This document shows, piece after piece, positions 4,880 through 60,065 of a stretch of 64,000 nt of DNA. Origin of the DNA: Caldisericum exile AZM16c01 (GTDB taxonomy: Bacteria > Caldisericota > Caldisericia > Caldisericales > Caldisericaceae); contig NC_017096.1 of the NCBI RefSeq assembly GCF_000284335.1, positions 1,302,001-1,366,000 of the forward strand. Reading direction: 5' to 3'. The notes beneath the pieces are model-generated. The model was not told where the DNA came from. It saw only the letters and a list, made by a program, of their open reading frames with translations, and made no database searches. Both the position numbers and the translations under genes were made by a program. Numbering within the stretch: position 1 is the first letter of the stretch; every line of letters starts with the position of its first letter.

Positions 4880-5430
4880 TCACATCTAAAGGGGAAACTA
4901 ACCCCCTCACTACTCCCCCATATGCCATAGTCATCCTGAACAAAGTGAGGGATCTCCTCGGTTAAATCTGAGGGGCAACAAACCCCTCAGCACTCCCCCA
5001 ATAACACAATTATCTTGTAGTCATGCCGAAATGACTTTCTGAGGCATCTCCTTTTAATAGAGGAGGGCAATGCCCTCCTCTAACTCCACCCAAAAAATAG
5101 TAATTTGTCATTTCGACGAACGAATGTGAGGAGAAATCCCCGCCTTTTAAGGAGGAGTTAGAGGGGGGAATCGTAAGTCCCCCTCTAACTCCCCCTGAAA
5201 AGGCGGAGAAAATTTAAATTTTTGGGAGCACTGAGGGGATCTTTTTCCCTCAGATTGAAAAGAGGAGATTTCTCACTACGTTCGAAATGACCAATTACTA
5301 CTTTTGGGGAGTATTGAGGGTGTTTGTTTCCCATCAGATTGAAATGAGGAGACTCCTCACATTCGTTCGGAGTGACTTAGTGATTTTTGGGGGAGTATTG
5401 AGGGGGGTGTTTCCTTCTCAGGTTTTTTTA
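4880..5430. repeat. mosaic of palindromic intergenic repeats
   Basis: The 879-bp gap between fur and the ATP-grasp gene holds no convincing gene. Instead it contains repeated modules. One is a motif of the type GTCATnnCGAAnnAA.TGAGGnATCTCC, in direct orientation at about 4930, 5019 and 5107 and inverted at about 5270 and 5348. Between them are GC-rich palindromes: CTGAGGGG/CCCCTCAG (4968-4989), AGAGGAGGGC/GCCCTCCTCT (about 5059-5081) and a long stem of about 28 bp around 5140-5206. About 80 bp near 5083-5175 recurs near 48317-48395. These look like REP/MITE-type dispersed elements rather than coding sequence. Confidence 0.75.
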
Positions 5431-5511: not shown

Positions 5512-6519
5512 ATGAAAGTTGGAATAACTTTTAACTTAAGGAAAACATTTTCTGAGAGGGATTCCGTTTTCGATAGCCCCAAGACTATTGAAGACGTAAA
5601 GTTAGCGCTTACATCCTTAGGACATCGGGTTAAACTCTACGAAGCAGATTCTGAAACGCTTTTTTATATTCTAAAAATAGATCGACCTCAAATTGTCTTT
5701 AATATGGCAGAAGGGCGATTCGGTGTTTTTGGTGAGTCCTTTGTACCTGCACTTCTTGATGAATTAAAAATACCATACACAGGTTCAGGCGTTCAAGGTA
5801 CACTTGTTGCTGTAAACAAGGTGTTTACAAAACTAATTCTTCAAAGTATCGGAATAAGTGTTCCAAAACTCTACCAGGTTGTAAACTCTTTAAAAGAAGA
5901 AATTACCCCTATTGACAAATTCCCCGTTATCGTGAAACCTGTTTTTGAGGGTGCAAGTATTGGCATCAAATCGAAGTCAATTTGTTATTCTCAAGAAGAG
6001 GTTGATAAAGCTGTCTTAAAACTCAAAGAGCGACTTGGAAATCGCCCAGTTATGATTGAAGAATTTATTGATGGAGTTGAGGTAACCGTAGGAGTTATTG
6101 GAAATTTTCCTCCAAAGTCACTTCCGCCAATGGAGATCGACTTTTCGCCACTAAATAAACGTGAACTAAATGCAACAAATGGTATTCAAACATTTACCTT
6201 CAAAACCAACTATTCCGAAAAGGCAAATTATTACTTGCCAGCAAGGTTTCCCCCTGAGGTGAATACTCATATACAAAAAATGGCAGTAAAGGCTTTTGAA
6301 ATTCTGGGATTAAGAGATATTGCCCGATTTGATGTAAGGGTTGACAAAGATTTCACACCGTATTTTATTGAAGTAAATGCAATTGTTGGACTTGAGAAAG
6401 AACACTCAGATTTTCCAAGAATGTATAAAATGCTTGGTTATGATTATAACGATCTTATAAAGGATATCCTCAACAGTGCCTTGGAGCGAGTAAAGAATAA
6501 TATGAGAGTTACTTATTAA
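5512..6519 (+). CDS. D-alanine--D-alanine ligase-like ATP-grasp protein
   Basis: A 335-residue ATP-grasp ligase. The N-terminal Ddl-like domain ends near residue 100. The ATP-binding region contains FPVIVKPVFEGASIG, corresponding to the Ddl motif EGSSxG. The metal/substrate end reads DVRVDKDFTPYFIEVNAIVGLEKEHSDFP, where Ddl has an NTxPGLTxxS signature. Both the altered EGASIG and the NAIVGLEKEHSDFP ending differ from classical Ddl, so this may ligate another amino acid pair or peptide; a peptidoglycan Ddl cannot be excluded. It ends 4 bp inside the convergent transporter gene. Confidence 0.78.
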   Translation: MKVGITFNLRKTFSERDSVFDSPKTIEDVKLALTSLGHRVKLYEADSETLFYILKIDRPQIVFNMAEGRFGVFGESFVPALLDELKIPYTGSGVQGTLVAVNKVFTKLILQSIGISVPKLYQVVNSLKEEITPIDKFPVIVKPVFEGASIGIKSKSICYSQEEVDKAVLKLKERLGNRPVMIEEFIDGVEVTVGVIGNFPPKSLPPMEIDFSPLNKRELNATNGIQTFTFKTNYSEKANYYLPARFPPEVNTHIQKMAVKAFEILGLRDIARFDVRVDKDFTPYFIEVNAIVGLEKEHSDFPRMYKMLGYDYNDLIKDILNSALERVKNNMRVTY

Positions 6520-53066: not shown

Positions 53067-55814
53067 TCAAGGATTTTTGCTTAGATTCTCGATCTGTTGT
53101 ATGAGGTCCTCAACAGCTTTAAGTTCTTCGCCGGCCTTTGCATAGTCACCACTTGCAACATATTTTTTGTAATTTTCAAAGTGCGTTTTCGCAAGGTCAA
53201 CAAGTTCTTTTATATTTTGTGTTTGCGGAGTCTGTGGCACATTTTGTACCTCTCCGAAGAGCAAGTTTAATGAATCCTCAAAAGTATCACCCCAAACAAG
53301 TTTATCCTGTGTTGAAAGAACAATCTTTTTTATTTGTGGGAATTTTGCAGTGTTTGCCTGCAAGTAAATAGGTTCAAAATATATAATTGAAGTATCAATG
53401 GGTATTACGAGGAGATTTCCTCTTATTACCTCAGATCCCTGTTGATTCCATAAAGTAAGAACCTTTGATATTTCCGAATCTTGATCAATACGCGCTTCAA
53501 TTTGAAGCGGCCCATAGACAAGCCTATCTTTGGGAAATCTTAAAAGATTTATTTTCCCGAAATTATCCTTTGAACAGTCAGCAATCATAAGGGCAACAAG
53601 GTTACTTTTGTTTAGTGGTGTAAAAGCATATAAGCTTGCAAACGTGTATTTTCCGCTTGAATCTTTAACAATTGCAAAATACGGAATTACGTCCTGTGTT
53701 TGTGAATAATACTTTTCTTTTGCAATATCCCATGCGTCTTCTTTGTTGTAGAAAACTTCTGGATCAGCCATATGGTATGTAAGATAAACATAGCCCTGGA
53801 TTTTCATTAGGTCATCTGGATAGCGCATATGATTCTTCAAAAATTCAGGCATTTCACTAAAGCTATGCAAAAGTGTTGGGAACGCCTTTGAAAGAGTCTT
53901 CGCAATTGGATCGCTATTATCAACGATATAGAAAGTTACATCTCCAGTATAAGCATCAATGACGCATTTTACTGAATTTCTTATGTAGTTAACATTTTCA
54001 TTATAAACATAGACGGGCTCAGAATAGGGATAAAAATTAGAAACAGTATATGCATCAATTACCCAGTAAAGTTTCCCATTATTTCCAAGCACAATGTATG
54101 GATCACTATCAAATTTAAGATATGGTGCAATTTTTGAAACTCTATCCTTTATGTTCCTTATATATAGAAGTTTGCTATTCGAATTTATATATCGTGAGAA
54201 AATGAAGTTTATATCGTTAAAACTAATCGTGTAGAGAAACCTATTGAAAGGTGTCAATCTAATACCTCGGTTTTCTTTGTATTTTGAATAAACATTCTCT
54301 TCACCTTTAGGATAGTCAAACTCATCTGTTCCTGTATTTACAATGATATAGTCATTTGTCAGTTCGCCAAAATAGATCTCTGGTCGTATAACTTGGAGTT
54401 CTGGCACAGTTGAAATAGGTGGTATATCCTTTACAAGAAGATCCGGAAGACCTTCTTGGGTAAATTCATTTACAGTATTCATACATATACCATAACCGTG
54501 GGTAAATTTGAGATGTAAATTAACCCATGTCTTGGATGTTTCAGGTAAAAGTCCTTGGTCTAACTCTCTTGCAGAGACGAGCACTTCTCTTAATTCATTA
54601 TTAAGAATATATCTGTCAACATCAACATCATTAAATGTATAGTAAAGCCTTATAGATTGGATCTGTTGATATGTATCTTTTAAGGCTCGCCAATCCCAAA
54701 ACCTAAAGTTATTAACTATCGTTTGATTTTTAGAAAGAAGATCTTTTGTAATTGGATTTAAGTCTTTTATTTCTGTTATATTTACCTTATCAAGACCAAA
54801 TCCTTGAAGAGTCCCATTAATGTTGTAAGTGAGGAATGATTTCTCTCGTTGGAGCTCCGTGGGACGAACCACAAGCGCTTGAAAAATATTTGGCACTGTG
54901 ATATAAAAGACAACCACGACAATAGCACTTATTAAAAGAATCCTGAAAACAGGTCCTCTTGCGGTGAATCGAGGAATTATCGCATAGATTATTAATATTA
55001 AGCCTGCTACAAACAAAAGAAGTGCAATAATCCTAAATATAGGTATACGAACATAGAAGTCTGTATATCCAATTCCAAATACTGCACCACCTTTTCGAAA
55101 CAATAGAGAATATACGCTCAAATAGATCTTAAGAGACACAGAAAAAAGTATTAAGGCTGCAAGTATAGACAAAAGATTTGTTGCATGTAGATTTATCCTT
55201 GAAATCTTTGAAAAATTCGGACGTATATACATAAGGTAAACAATTTCTTCAACCAAAAACGCAATTACAAAGATAGAAAGAAGTGTTGATACAATTCCAT
55301 TCAAGAATGGATATGTAAAAAGATAAAAACTCACATCTCTATGGAAAACAGGGTCAAAAATATTTGATGGGGTTCTATTAATGAACATCAAAACTTGCTC
55401 AAATTGGGCAGATGTTGCACTTCCCGTAAAAAAGGCAAGAATAAGAGGCACTACAAACCTTGAAACATTAATAATTCGTTCCCCAACTTCGAGCTCTTCG
55501 TGTCTTTTAGGAACGTAAAAAGAAACAAAATACAGTAAGTATGAAATAGAAAATCCAATCAAGAAAAGAGTTATTTTTACGAAAATTCTTCTTAGAAATA
55601 CGTTTTGATAATTAACACTCTTAAACCAGAGTAGATTCGTAATAAAATTTACCGATGAAAGAAAAATTGTTACAATTATGACACCCAAAACAAGAATAAA
55701 TACTTCTCTTTTTACAAGATGAAATGGCGGGGTATTAGTCTTAAGTTTATATGCTTTTATTATCAAAGGTAATGCAAAGATAAAATAAAGAATAAAAACA
55801 ATAAATCCAACCAT
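53067..55814 (-). CDS. UPF0182 family large membrane protein
   Basis: A 915-residue protein. Seven hydrophobic helices lie in the first 310 residues, followed by a large extracytoplasmic domain (about 320-850) and a short helical C-terminus (KELVDLAKTHFENYKKYVASGDYAKAGEELK). Motifs WVNLHLKFTHGYGICMNTVNEFTQEGLPDL and RPEIYFGEL are hallmarks of UPF0182. Its function is unknown in all lineages. GGAGG precedes ATG 55814. Confidence 0.93.
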   Translation of the reverse strand: MVGFIVFILYFIFALPLIIKAYKLKTNTPPFHLVKREVFILVLGVIIVTIFLSSVNFITNLLWFKSVNYQNVFLRRIFVKITLFLIGFSISYLLYFVSFYVPKRHEELEVGERIINVSRFVVPLILAFFTGSATSAQFEQVLMFINRTPSNIFDPVFHRDVSFYLFTYPFLNGIVSTLLSIFVIAFLVEEIVYLMYIRPNFSKISRINLHATNLLSILAALILFSVSLKIYLSVYSLLFRKGGAVFGIGYTDFYVRIPIFRIIALLLFVAGLILIIYAIIPRFTARGPVFRILLISAIVVVVFYITVPNIFQALVVRPTELQREKSFLTYNINGTLQGFGLDKVNITEIKDLNPITKDLLSKNQTIVNNFRFWDWRALKDTYQQIQSIRLYYTFNDVDVDRYILNNELREVLVSARELDQGLLPETSKTWVNLHLKFTHGYGICMNTVNEFTQEGLPDLLVKDIPPISTVPELQVIRPEIYFGELTNDYIIVNTGTDEFDYPKGEENVYSKYKENRGIRLTPFNRFLYTISFNDINFIFSRYINSNSKLLYIRNIKDRVSKIAPYLKFDSDPYIVLGNNGKLYWVIDAYTVSNFYPYSEPVYVYNENVNYIRNSVKCVIDAYTGDVTFYIVDNSDPIAKTLSKAFPTLLHSFSEMPEFLKNHMRYPDDLMKIQGYVYLTYHMADPEVFYNKEDAWDIAKEKYYSQTQDVIPYFAIVKDSSGKYTFASLYAFTPLNKSNLVALMIADCSKDNFGKINLLRFPKDRLVYGPLQIEARIDQDSEISKVLTLWNQQGSEVIRGNLLVIPIDTSIIYFEPIYLQANTAKFPQIKKIVLSTQDKLVWGDTFEDSLNLLFGEVQNVPQTPQTQNIKELVDLAKTHFENYKKYVASGDYAKAGEELKAVEDLIQQIENLSKNP

Positions 55815-55863
55815 TTAGTCCTCCTCTTTTTCATTATACCAATAACTCCTAAATCAAAAAAGG

Positions 55864-55894
55864 CCCGTAGCAACATAAAAAACTTTGCTACGGG
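55864..55894 (-). terminator. terminator of the DUF505 gene
   Basis: On the minus strand CCCGTAGCAA and TTGCTACGGG form a 10-bp stem, followed by CCTTTTTT. Confidence 0.88.
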
Positions 55895-55914
55895 TAAAAA
55901 ACTTACGATACAGG

Positions 55915-57900
55915 TCAATCCAGAATCTCGTGGTAACTTACAAGGTCAGCTTTGGAACTCATCTTGTCGACGGCTTCAAGCAATAGCAAACCTTGTTCGT
56001 TTATACTTGTTTCACCAATGTATCCTGCAGCTCTTGCAAGTTCAAGAGCATTTTGGAAGGCCTCTTTCGAAAGACCTGAAGCCTTCAGTGCTTCTTTTAT
56101 GTTTTTTGGAAGAATCCTTACCTTACGCTCCTTCACATAAAGCGTTCCGACTTCTCTTAATGCTCTTAAAACTCTTATAAGCAATGGGTTAACAGGAAAT
56201 CCAAGCCCAGTTGGAACTCCCGACAGAGCCTTATCCATGAGTTTTCCTACTTCGGTTTCGATAACGTTCCCGTCAGGTAATATCTCAATGAGGTGTCGCG
56301 CTTCAAGTTTTGCTAAGGCAAATCTAATTCTACCTTCATCAAATTGGTCTTTTAACTTTTCAATAACCTCATCAACAATTGCACCTTTCTCAGGGATAAG
56401 CGAGAAAACAGTTCTTTCAAATTTAGTAAGAAGCGGAAGTCTTTCAATGTGTTCTGCAAGATTTGCAAAGAAATAACCATTTTTTGTAGGTTCTTTCGCA
56501 CCTATAAGTCCTTCTTCCTCTGCCTTTTTAACCCACTCAATATTGGGGGAACTGAATGTTTTTCTTGTGATGGTAATTGCTTTAACGGAGTCGGAACTTA
56601 CGCTTTCAACATTCCTTTCAAGCACACTCTCTCCCCATTTGGTTATCACAAAGACTTCCTCACCTTCTTCGTCAACGGTACTCTTTATTAGGTCAAAGCT
56701 TTCCATGGAGTGCAAATCCGCCCTCAAATCAAAGTAGCCTTCATACCATGCTGAAAGGTCTTTTGCATCTTCAAAAGCCTTTGCAATTTGTTGATATTTC
56801 TTTGGCATCTCGTTGAGTTTCCTTCCATAACGCTCAATGAGTTCCTTATACTGTTTTATGCGCCTGCCAATCATCTCTTTCTTTAAATTCTCAAGGGTAG
56901 GCCGATCTTTGGGATTTGTCTTTGCCTTCTCCCAGAGCGACTTTATCGCACGAAGTGCCATCATCTCACCTTCCTCTATGTCGAAAGACCAAACTTCCTT
57001 TCTTGGACCATCTTTGAGTAATCTATAAACCTCCAATGCCCATTCTCCTGCAGGAAGTAAGTTTCCATCAGTTCCAACATACCCAAGCGATTGCAACGTT
57101 TCAAGAGCAATATCCGTTATTTTCTTTTCATCATACCAATCAGCAATCGCTCTGAGAATGTCTTCCGATAGTACTGTTTCTTCTCCAAAACCACCAAGCA
57201 TTAAAGTCTTTTTTACTGCTTGGCCTAATGCAGTGAAAGCGAATATTTCTCCATTTAGAACAGAATATGCAATGAGCCTCATTGATTCAAGAAGATGTGA
57301 ATTATGAACCGATAATTTTATTTCAGAGGATCGTGCAGGGCCTATTGGTAAGCCTCTTATAACATTTGCAAGGTCTGAATCGATGATTAACTTTGGTGAA
57401 ACAGTATATATGTCGAGGATCGCTTTTCCTTGTTCACTTAAAATATAACTCTCCTTCTTAGTTTCAGCATCTCTAACTTTTACAGCAAGACCTCTTTCCA
57501 TGAGAGGCTCTATGCCAAGAGGACCTACACGCCCAGCCTTATTTGCGGCATCAAGAAGCGCAATGATTTCGCTTCCAATGAATCTAAAATCTGGATCCCA
57601 TTCCTCAGGTTTAGAAATTCCTCTTTTTTCAATAATAAATAAACTTGAAGAACCATAAGATTCTTCCACATAATTGGATTTCGGTCCAAGAGAATAAAGT
57701 TCTCTTAAGACATTTGCAAGTGCCTTGCCCGTATATGTTAAGACTAATTTTATAGGCGTTTCAAAACGAACAAGACCCATAATATCAAGTTCTCTTACCG
57801 TATCGCTATTGAGTTGCGACATATAAGTTGCAAACAGATCTTTATTTTCATTTAACAATATCTTTTCAAGAATAACCGCATGCTCCTTCTTAATTACCAT
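55915..57900 (-). CDS. DUF505 family protein
   Basis: A 661-residue soluble protein of the DUF505 family, found mainly in thermophilic bacteria and archaea. It consists of repeated winged-helix-like units: each ends in a strand such as LVLTYTGKALANVL, YILSEQGKAILDIY, FAFTALGQAVKKTL or FVITKWGESVLERN. This suggests four or more copies of one fold. No catalytic residues are evident. Start ATG 57900 follows GGGAGG. It is transcribed alone, divergent from the peptide array. Confidence 0.85.
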   Translation of the reverse strand: MVIKKEHAVILEKILLNENKDLFATYMSQLNSDTVRELDIMGLVRFETPIKLVLTYTGKALANVLRELYSLGPKSNYVEESYGSSSLFIIEKRGISKPEEWDPDFRFIGSEIIALLDAANKAGRVGPLGIEPLMERGLAVKVRDAETKKESYILSEQGKAILDIYTVSPKLIIDSDLANVIRGLPIGPARSSEIKLSVHNSHLLESMRLIAYSVLNGEIFAFTALGQAVKKTLMLGGFGEETVLSEDILRAIADWYDEKKITDIALETLQSLGYVGTDGNLLPAGEWALEVYRLLKDGPRKEVWSFDIEEGEMMALRAIKSLWEKAKTNPKDRPTLENLKKEMIGRRIKQYKELIERYGRKLNEMPKKYQQIAKAFEDAKDLSAWYEGYFDLRADLHSMESFDLIKSTVDEEGEEVFVITKWGESVLERNVESVSSDSVKAITITRKTFSSPNIEWVKKAEEEGLIGAKEPTKNGYFFANLAEHIERLPLLTKFERTVFSLIPEKGAIVDEVIEKLKDQFDEGRIRFALAKLEARHLIEILPDGNVIETEVGKLMDKALSGVPTGLGFPVNPLLIRVLRALREVGTLYVKERKVRILPKNIKEALKASGLSKEAFQNALELARAAGYIGETSINEQGLLLLEAVDKMSSKADLVSYHEILD

Positions 57901-58032
57901 AGCCCCCACCTCCCATAATATAAGTTTTTATATTTCTAACAATATTATATTGAGACAATGCATCAGAGTCAATATACTTTTTACAAAGTTCCAAACTCGG
58001 TTCATTAAAATGTATATTTTACGCTAAAACAC

Positions 58033-58060
58033 TTGACAAATGCAAAAATGTTCATAAAAT
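58033..58060 (+). promoter_or_regulatory. promoter of the six-peptide array
   Basis: TTGACA (58033-58038), 16 bases, TAAAAT (58055-58060). Transcription should start near 58067, leaving a leader of about 37 bases before the first peptide ATG. It is the only strong promoter for the array, so all six units are probably on one transcript. Confidence 0.8.
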
Positions 58061-58103
58061 TTTTGTGGAATAAATAAATTAATTAGAAAGGAGGTAGAAG
58101 ATC

Positions 58104-58190
58104 ATGAAGTGGGGAGCAAGAGTTTTAGCATTCATTCTTAGCGTAATGGTTATAGCATTGACAGTATTAGCAGATTTGAAATGGCATTAG
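58104..58190 (+). CDS. 28-residue hydrophobic peptide, copy 1 of 6
   Basis: AAAGGAGG stands 9 bases before the ATG. The peptide begins MKWGAR, continues with a hydrophobic stretch (residues 7-23, VLAFILSVMVIALTVLA) and ends DLKWH. A positive N-terminus, one membrane-length helix and Trp at both ends fit an inserted single-pass peptide. The V-L-A before Asp24 also fits a signal peptidase site, which would release the pentapeptide DLKWH. No similarity to a known family is recognised. Confidence 0.8.
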   Translation: MKWGARVLAFILSVMVIALTVLADLKWH

Positions 58191-58207
58191 AAAGGAGGTA
58201 GAAGATC

Positions 58208-58294
58208 ATGAAGTGGGGAGCAAGAGTTTTAGCATTCATTCTTAGCGTAATGGTTATAGCATTGACAGTATTAGCAGATTTGAAATGGCATTAG
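58208..58294 (+). CDS. 28-residue hydrophobic peptide, copy 2 of 6
   Basis: Identical in DNA and protein to copy 1, with its own AAAGGAGG. The ribosome site lies 18-25 bases past the start of the preceding linker, so re-initiation is not needed. Confidence 0.8.
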   Translation: MKWGARVLAFILSVMVIALTVLADLKWH

Positions 58295-58311
58295 AAAGGA
58301 GGTAGAAGATC

Positions 58312-58398
58312 ATGAAGTGGGGAGCAAGAGTTTTAGCATTCATTCTTAGCGTAATGGTTATAGCATTGACAGTATTAGCAGATTTGAAATGGCATTAG
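58312..58398 (+). CDS. 28-residue hydrophobic peptide, copy 3 of 6
   Basis: Identical to copy 1, with its own Shine-Dalgarno; a different reading frame from copies 2 and 4. Confidence 0.8.
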   Translation: MKWGARVLAFILSVMVIALTVLADLKWH

Positions 58399-58415
58399 AA
58401 AGGAGGTAGAAGATC

Positions 58416-58502
58416 ATGAAGTGGGGAGCAAGAGTTTTAGCATTCATTCTTAGCGTAATGGTTATAGCATTGACAGTATTAGCAGATTTGAAATGGCATT
58501 AG
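58416..58502 (+). CDS. 28-residue hydrophobic peptide, copy 4 of 6
   Basis: Identical to copy 1, with its own Shine-Dalgarno; same reading frame as copy 1. Confidence 0.8.
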   Translation: MKWGARVLAFILSVMVIALTVLADLKWH

Positions 58503-58519
58503 AAAGGAGGTAGAAGATC

Positions 58520-58606
58520 ATGAAGTGGGGAGCAAGAGTTTTAGCATTCATTCTTAGCGTAATGGTTATAGCATTGACAGTATTAGCAGATTTGAAATGG
58601 CATTAG
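58520..58606 (+). CDS. 28-residue hydrophobic peptide, copy 5 of 6
   Basis: Identical to copy 1, with its own Shine-Dalgarno; same reading frame as copy 2. Confidence 0.8.
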   Translation: MKWGARVLAFILSVMVIALTVLADLKWH

Positions 58607-58623
58607 AAAGGAGGTAGAAGATC

Positions 58624-58710
58624 ATGAAGTGGGGAGCAAGAGTTTTAGCATTCATTCTTAGCGTAATGGTTATAGCATTGACAGTATTAGCAGATTTGAA
58701 ATGGCATTAG
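58624..58710 (+). CDS. 28-residue hydrophobic peptide, copy 6 of 6
   Basis: Identical to copy 1. After its stop the next linker is broken after AAAGGAGG, and no clear terminator follows before the promoter of the HD-GYP gene at 58737, so read-through into that gene is possible. Confidence 0.8.
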   Translation: MKWGARVLAFILSVMVIALTVLADLKWH

Positions 58711-58736
58711 AAAGGAGGGGTTTCATTTATTAAAAA

Positions 58737-58765
58737 TTGACAGAAAAATAACTTAGATATATAAT
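58737..58765 (+). promoter_or_regulatory. consensus promoter of the HD-GYP gene
   Basis: TTGACA (58737-58742), 17 bases, TATAAT (58760-58765): a perfect sigma-70 promoter. Seven bases separate it from GTG 58773, so the transcript should begin at or one base before the start codon, without a Shine-Dalgarno. Confidence 0.8.
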
Positions 58766-58772
58766 ATTAAAT

Positions 58773-60065
58773 GTGAAGAAAACAGAAAAGCGGATATATT
58801 TATTGGTTTTTCTTTTGCTTTTATTTTTTTTATTTACACTTGCTTATTCTGTTTATAAATTTAAATTTATCCTAACTAAAAATGATATAGTATTCTTAAT
58901 CATCTTATTAGCATCGATAATTTTCTCGGATAAGTATCCTGTCATAATTCCAATTGGCACCGAAGTTTCAGAACTATCCGTTTCCACAGCTATAACTTTT
59001 ACTGTGGCATTCCTCTTTAATCCAACTCTTACTATCATAGTGGTAGTATTAGGTACTATTATTTCAGATATAATCACAAAAAAGAAGTGGTATAAAATCC
59101 TTTTCAATACCGCAAATATAGGGACAGCAACGGGAATTACAAGCTTGTTCTTTTCTAAATTTTACAATCCAATTTTGCCTTTTACTTCACCTCAAAACCT
59201 GGGAGTAGTAATATTTGGAGCAGCAACTCATTTCTTTCTCGAGTCTTTTTTCCTCTATCTCCTTCTTTCCTTTATCGTAAACAGGCCACTTTTCAGTTTT
59301 TATGTGGAAAACATAAAATTCATAGCAGTAGAAGTTTTAACGCTTTACCCACTTGGTATAGTACTCATGTATTTCTTTAAATATAATCCTTTGATGAACG
59401 CATTTCTTTTACCATCGCTTATTGCTGTATATTATGCCCTGCAAAGAAGATATGTAATAATTCAAGAAACCAAAAACGCACTTTTTGCAATAGCAGAAGT
59501 TGTTGATAAAAAAATACCCGATACAATTGACCATACGAAACGTGTTGCAATAATAACTGAGGCAATCTGTAATGAACTTCAACTTCCATTATCACAAACA
59601 AATGAAATTGTCCTTGCGGCAATGCTTCACGATATTGGCAAAATTGTAATCCCAGACTTTATCCTCAAAAAGTCAGATCCAAACGATGATGAAATGGAAG
59701 TAATACATCTCCACGTAATCGAAGGAGAAAAAATTGTTTCACGATTATCACTATTTAGAAAAGGGGCAGTAATTATAAGACATCACCATGAAAAATGGGA
59801 TGGAACAGGATATCCTGATCACCTTAAAGGAGAAGAAATTCCTCTTGGCTCAAGAATTATAGCAATTGCAGATTCATTTGATGCAATGACAACGCAAAGG
59901 TACTACCGTGACAGAGTTAAGAGTTTTGACGAAGGATTAAAAGAATTAAAGGCATGTGCAGGAACACAGTTTGACCCAAATCTTGTAGAAATTGCAATAA
60001 AAGTGATATCCCAAAAGAGAGAAGAACTTCTCAAGTTAATGTACCCGATACTACAGTCCCAATGA
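58773..60065 (+). CDS. membrane HD-GYP domain phosphodiesterase
   Basis: A 430-residue protein. Residues 1-225 hold about seven hydrophobic helices, a probable membrane sensor. Residues about 240-425 are an HD-GYP domain: AAMLHDIGKIVIPDFILKK (HD), HHHEKWDGTGYPDHLKGEEIPLGSRIIAIADSFDAMTT (HHExxDGxGYP). All metal ligands appear present, so cyclic-di-GMP (or related) hydrolysis is likely. GTG start 58773 is fixed by the promoter. It overlaps the DUF5317 gene by 4 bp. Confidence 0.9.
   Translation: MKKTEKRIYLLVFLLLLFFLFTLAYSVYKFKFILTKNDIVFLIILLASIIFSDKYPVIIPIGTEVSELSVSTAITFTVAFLFNPTLTIIVVVLGTIISDIITKKKWYKILFNTANIGTATGITSLFFSKFYNPILPFTSPQNLGVVIFGAATHFFLESFFLYLLLSFIVNRPLFSFYVENIKFIAVEVLTLYPLGIVLMYFFKYNPLMNAFLLPSLIAVYYALQRRYVIIQETKNALFAIAEVVDKKIPDTIDHTKRVAIITEAICNELQLPLSQTNEIVLAAMLHDIGKIVIPDFILKKSDPNDDEMEVIHLHVIEGEKIVSRLSLFRKGAVIIRHHHEKWDGTGYPDHLKGEEIPLGSRIIAIADSFDAMTTQRYYRDRVKSFDEGLKELKACAGTQFDPNLVEIAIKVISQKREELLKLMYPILQSQ

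Follow-up and report, generated by a model that had tools for sequence, protein, structure and literature searches.

Background

In RRNPPA signalling systems a propeptide of 50-120 aa bearing a short C-terminal signal is exported, and some propeptides contain repeated pheromone units (PMC11343458). The locus described here, a tandem array of very small genes in the genome of Caldisericum exile AZM16c01, resembles the RRNPPA systems (Rap-Phr, NprR, PlcR, PrgX, AimR), in which the gene of a Sec-exported propeptide lies beside that of its receiver and the specificity resides in a C-terminal tail of 5-10 residues. It differs from them in three respects: whereas an RRNPPA peptide is re-imported and bound by a cytoplasmic TPR-type receptor, the partners here are a membrane sensor with a c-di-GMP or kinase output and a protein of the DUF5317 family; the precursors have 25-50 aa; and the repeats are separate genes rather than units within one propeptide. 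Pfam identified no TPR-type receptor among the neighbours of the array in the window (the whole stretch of DNA analysed, 64,000 nucleotides; NC_017096.1, positions 1,302,001 to 1,366,000).

Other described systems share single features with this locus. The enterococcal sex pheromones cAD1 and cCF10 are the C-terminal ends of lipoprotein signal peptides, and here too the candidate signal would be the C-terminal part of a leader that resembles a signal peptide; however, cAD1 and cCF10 are by-products of a lipoprotein, whereas the genes described here have no other product and show no lipobox. ComX-ComP and Agr (AgrD-AgrB-AgrC) similarly combine a short precursor with an adjacent membrane sensor and a polymorphic mature peptide, and ComX carries an essential tryptophan; no homologue of ComQ or AgrB was found by Pfam in the window neighbourhood. 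In the open-licence literature searched, DUF5317 is unmentioned (a prior description elsewhere is possible), MASE9 occurs only as an unrelated word, and there is nothing on Thermus quorum sensing with HD-GYP proteins and nothing fitting on HD-GYP proteins with peptide pheromones. A Thermotoga peptide, TM0504, was considered and dropped, no paper on it having been found. We rate the system as new in its parts and as lying outside the RRNPPA families, with a function that we infer.

A six-copy peptide gene array in Caldisericum exile

At positions 58082-58718 of the window, TRF finds a repeat with a 104-bp period, 6.1 copies, 100% match and no indels, which holds six whole forward-strand ORFs of 28 aa (58104-58190, 58208-58294, 58312-58398, 58416-58502, 58520-58606 and 58624-58710). 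The product of every copy is MKWGARVLAFILSVMVIALTVLADLKWH; the coding sequences are identical in 15 of 15 pairwise comparisons, all five spacers between the copies read AAAGGAGGTAGAAGATC, and each gene is preceded by its own AAAGGAGG. This Shine-Dalgarno sequence lies at 58087-58094 (forward strand) for copy 1, 9 bases ahead of the ATG, and recurs every 104 bases; a seventh occurrence, left over after the last stop (58711-58718, forward strand), closes the repeat array. A promoter-like site, TTGACA-16-TAAAAT (11/12), precedes the array at 58033-58060 on the same strand, and a perfect sigma-70-type promoter, TTGACA-17-TATAAT, follows it at 58737-58765 (forward strand), belonging to the next gene, which encodes a membrane HD-GYP protein. 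Because this second promoter ends only 7 bases ahead of the GTG start codon, the HD-GYP transcript may be leaderless. The identical units with their ribosome-binding sites, the promoter ahead of them and the perfectly promoted HD-GYP gene directly behind them had all been described in the first-pass annotation of this DNA and are borne out.

The array copies are confined to one locus of the 1,558,103-base single-contig genome, with none elsewhere in it. In the named species-genome collection, the only other match to the exact pattern is in the Caldisericum exile MAG ZAV-07, which has one full copy flanked by two Shine-Dalgarno repeats, a similar promoter ahead of it and the same promoter layout downstream; thus, either copy number varies or the ZAV-07 assembly collapsed the array. 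The peptide genes of the window and ZAV-07 differ by 2 silent and 0 replacement changes, and the adjoining HD-GYP proteins are 77% identical. A chance origin is excluded, since the same peptide and the same neighbours recur in many genomes. The perfect identity of the six units would suit an assembly artefact or a selfish satellite repeat with incidental ORFs, but the silent-only divergence of the single-copy ZAV-07 version, and the diverged arrays of other genomes, which are under purifying selection (see below), argue so strongly against either that we give this explanation almost no credence. Viral contigs contain no copy of the peptide, and a phage origin was rejected on that ground.

Elsewhere in the window there is a second tandem repeat (5218-5405; 84-base period, 2.3 copies, 77% alike). 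Two large uncharacterised proteins, of the UPF0182 (915 aa) and DUF505 (664 aa) families, are encoded divergently from the array at 53067-57909 on the reverse strand; Pfam identifies Amidase_2, PfkB and nucleoside hydrolase proteins as further neighbours.

Proteins encoded next to the array

The gene following the array (58773-60065, forward strand) encodes an HD-GYP c-di-GMP phosphodiesterase, a membrane protein whose N-terminal membrane domain is MASE9-like. Its HDIGK and HHE-GYP motifs are intact and are invariant in the alignment, its HD_5 domain scores 129.2 bits against a cut-off of 27.2, and its structurally characterised relatives include 5z7c and 4mcw. The MASE9 (PF20972) match of the window protein, 20.8 bits, is under the cut-off of 24.3; homologues score 65.5 (L242), 31.3 (L123) and 28.5 (L030). 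Overlapping the HD-GYP stop codon is the start of a gene for a DUF5317 membrane protein (PF17248; 60062-60619, forward strand; 100.9 bits against a cut-off of 25), in which a conserved loop of 60 residues (NGGxMP, LNFLGD) is placed outside the cell by loop charge bias. DUF5317 has no detectable relation to any family of known function: its profile gave only weak matches to designed repeat proteins in the PDB, judged spurious, and the structure predicted from a two-sequence input has a pLDDT of 46. The 28-residue peptide matched no family in Pfam or NCBIfam, and genes so small are easily missed by annotation.

The peptide family in Caldisericota

A search of 61 relatives, of the kind suggested in the first-pass annotation, matched the peptide in 19 genomes and revealed a conserved family with the same neighbours, which further searches traced into multiple phyla. 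Strong profile matches occur in 18 of the 54 genomes of the phylum and span two Caldisericota families, the commonest form being MKWG(S/A/T)(K/R) followed by a hydrophobic core and A-x-x-K-W-H. Many copies are in tandem, and many contigs stop at or near the array, as expected of short reads, which cannot resolve identical repeats. On the Caldisericota contigs that run past the array, HD-GYP and then DUF5317 are always next, and the genes on the opposite side are variable. DUF5317 is present in 31 of the 54 genomes; the peptide is found in 18 of these 31 and in none of the 23 genomes that lack DUF5317 (Fisher p = 3e-6). Three congeners of the window genome (G001, G002, G004) have neither DUF5317 nor the peptide, which suggests that loss or gain affects the whole module at once.

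A conserved module in at least six phyla

Because of the linkage in Caldisericota, DUF5317 was taken as the anchor for other phyla, and the DNA around its genes was searched there for mini-genes, defined by a strong ribosome site, 20-52 codons, a basic start and a hydrophobic stretch. The array heads a conserved module that consists of one or more peptide genes, a membrane sensor and DUF5317; the sensor is usually a c-di-GMP enzyme, either HD-GYP or GGDEF, that carries a MASE9-like domain. The module spans at least six phyla, being found in Caldisericota, in Deinococcota of the Thermus type, in a Bacilli-like class and in three or more other phyla. Specifically, genes for peptides of this kind adjoin those for DUF5317 and a membrane sensor in the phyla of G356, G153, G270 and G194, in the class of G378 and at L123 from G226. 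The gene after DUF5317 at L244 matches the homoisocitrate dehydrogenase structures 3asj and 1x0l over the full length of these structures; they are from Thermus thermophilus, and we take the G356 phylum to be Thermus-like. The assignment of G378 to a Bacilli-like class is a guess, as are all labels beyond Caldisericum and Thermus. Thermus composti, a control genome, also gave a signal.

A mini-gene is found in the expected place at 69 of 75 loci, of which 1-2 could be chance ORFs (L279 at a contig end, for example), versus an expectation of 0.03-0.07 per locus, about 3 in all, set by the rate elsewhere within the same loci. The six misses include some cut, masked or displaced copies and one locus without any sensor gene (L270). 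In two additional phyla, each of the 16 complete loci has a mini-gene. By contrast, none of 14 sensor-less DUF5317 loci (L095, L097, L102, L130, L131, L132, L134, L231, L236, L246, L270 and L350-L352) has a mini-gene; thus, the peptide tracks the combination of DUF5317 and sensor and not DUF5317 alone. Two of these loci, L131 and L132 (G098 and G373), encode the DUF5317 proteins closest to that of the window among distant genomes (46-48% identical), beside other conserved genes and with neither an HD-GYP nor a peptide gene.

The commonest gene order is peptide, HD-GYP, DUF5317; the Bacilli-like class and part of the G270 phylum have either peptide, DUF5317, sensor or DUF5317, peptide, sensor. 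An independent array of five copies of MKKALVYIGIVATFIVSATSGWYYY, with a 109-bp unit, lies between DUF5317 and a GGDEF-type sensor at L269 (G404; about 5570-6085, reverse strand). In one Thermus-like genome (G652, L254:3150-4028) the peptide and HD-GYP genes have between them a further ORF, perhaps that of a transposase.

That the sensor and DUF5317 are the only constant partners bears on the possibility that the tail acts, once secreted, as an antimicrobial or on the envelope, with DUF5317 for immunity or processing and the sensor regulating production. The high dosage, the strong expression signals and the species-specific tails described below would fit such a product, but at about 5 residues the tail is very short, and the window neighbourhood holds no exporter, modification or immunity-type genes, which together make this role improbable.

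Conservation and variation within the peptide

The peptides share a plan of basic start, hydrophobic core, A-x-A-like site and a tail that mostly has 5 residues, usually xxxWx, and in this they resemble a bare signal peptide. The small-residue sites include AAGA, AGGA, LSGA, VLA, ILA and TSA, and the tails include DLKWH (window), NYKWH, RFKWH, NHKWG, GFHWK, SARWE, DTTWQ and KATWR. A permissive rule, which fits nearly any end rich in small residues, locates a -3/-1 small-residue site in all 52 representatives, mostly with 5 residues left behind it. There are exceptions to the plan: the tryptophan is replaced by F at L260 and L314 and by K-F or other residues in the Bacilli-like class, and a clean A-x-A is missing in a few peptides (L237, Paenibacillus-like types).

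In the Thermus group, 46 peptides of equal length carry 40 different pentapeptide tails, in which the tryptophan is invariant; in the preceding AAGA only the first residue varies, and only once. The four variable tail sites have entropies of 2.1-2.8 bits, compared with no more than 1.8 bits in the leader, and pN/pS is 0.80 for the tail without its tryptophan, 0.39 for the leader and 0.01 for AAGA. Because the tail value does not reach 1, constraint on it may be relaxed between species, which counts against reading the tail as a signal. Within genomes the pattern is the reverse. The five copies at L238 differ by 1-11 silent and 0 replacement changes in the last 13 codons while their leaders drift; at L240 the tail has 2 silent and 0 replacement changes and the leader has 15 replacements; and in the L237 array every change is silent. 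Homogenisation, proposed in the first-pass annotation from the exact identity of the copies, fits the window array, but it is not the sole cause of tail identity: the copies at L237, L238 and L269 keep the same tail despite many silent differences, so that selection as well as copying preserves the product. A tail that is constant within a genome and different between species is what a specific signal should show, unlike a passive membrane anchor or a neutral repeat.

Constancy of the tail within arrays also bears on the analogy with type I toxins that the first-pass annotation had drawn. Like the Ldr and Ibs genes of E. coli, the genes described here are tandem ORFs for tiny hydrophobic peptides, and a type I toxin-like array might be held under an antisense RNA. 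Antisense control, however, defines Ldr and Ibs and is not seen here: there is no promoter-like site on the minus strand inside the array, and the array has no Rfam match. Signalling proteins are instead the constant partners in many phyla, and viral contigs, as noted, have no copy of the peptide. The analogy is not supported, and we regard a toxin as very improbable.

A more serious competitor is an uncleaved accessory subunit that would span the membrane once (N-in, C-out), pack against the membrane parts of the sensor and DUF5317 and set the activity of the enzyme, the array providing an excess. CydX, KdpF and AcrZ are accessory subunits that act in this way on their partners, and like them the peptide is tiny, hydrophobic and linked to a single membrane complex. 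Such a subunit would also fit the constant gene linkage with the sensor and DUF5317; the MKWG start, at what would be the cytoplasmic end, is conserved in Caldisericota and the G153 phylum, in the former as strongly as the tail and beyond the needs of a plain signal peptide; the tryptophan would lie at the far membrane interface; and AAGA could provide helix-packing contacts. However, a passive anchor does not explain a tail of near-fixed length that is species-specific yet identical within arrays. CydX, KdpF and AcrZ are not known to have such tails or tandem arrays, and known accessory peptides are usually single-copy. We therefore consider an uncleaved subunit possible but unlikely. The first-pass annotation had left open whether the product is a membrane peptide or a source of DLKWH; the invariant A-x-A-like site, the short tails, their variation between species but not within an array, and the constant sensor favour the latter, and the membrane peptide is now the less favoured.

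Interchangeable outputs behind one sensor domain

The output domain encoded beside the peptide is HD-GYP in most lineages and GGDEF or GGDEF-HD-GYP in others. At L277:5430-7001 (G487), a PAS-histidine kinase replaces the c-di-GMP enzyme within a peptide-DUF5317 locus. The membrane domain of this kinase scores 21.1 bits against the sensor profile, compared with 4.1 for the best of 200 shuffles, and is similar to the L275 sensor by BLAST (E = 2e-7). A constant peptide, DUF5317 and sensor domain with swappable outputs has the look of an input system. With the catalytic domain corrected for, distances between tails correlate with those between sensor domains (partial correlation 0.26-0.33). The leader, as a control, gives a similar value; thus, the co-variation of tail and sensor is not proof of recognition.

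Proposed function

We propose, with a probability of about 0.6, that the array is a set of precursor genes for a short secreted peptide signal that is read by the neighbouring sensor, the multiple copies adding dosage. The 28-aa product would amount to a Sec signal peptide, made up of a basic start, about 17 hydrophobic residues and V-L-A, with hardly anything beyond it but DLKWH. After Sec export, a membrane protease, signal peptidase I or another, would cut behind the small residue, releasing the tail outside the cell. There, the MASE9-like domain of the HD-GYP protein, DUF5317 with its conserved outward loop, or both may sense it at the membrane, and sensing would alter the hydrolysis of c-di-GMP inside. 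With six strong ribosome sites and a strong promoter of its own for the array, and a separate promoter for the enzyme, many peptides would be made per receiver. Export, cleavage, the mature form, the binding protein and the direction of the effect are in each case our reading of the sequence.

Conclusions

On balance, with a slight lean in favour, the comparisons suggest a new class of peptide communication, in which a bare signal peptide would release a species-specific tail of about 5 residues to a MASE9-type sensor with DUF5317, coupled to swappable c-di-GMP or kinase outputs, in at least six phyla, with tandem arrays in some lineages for greater peptide output. If true, this would provide an input for the many c-di-GMP enzymes whose membrane sensors are orphans, and would give DUF5317 a first role. 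It would also establish peptide signalling in deep-branching and thermophilic bacteria, for which we know of none that is established. Thermus is easily transformed, and is a host in which the signalling reading becomes testable at once.
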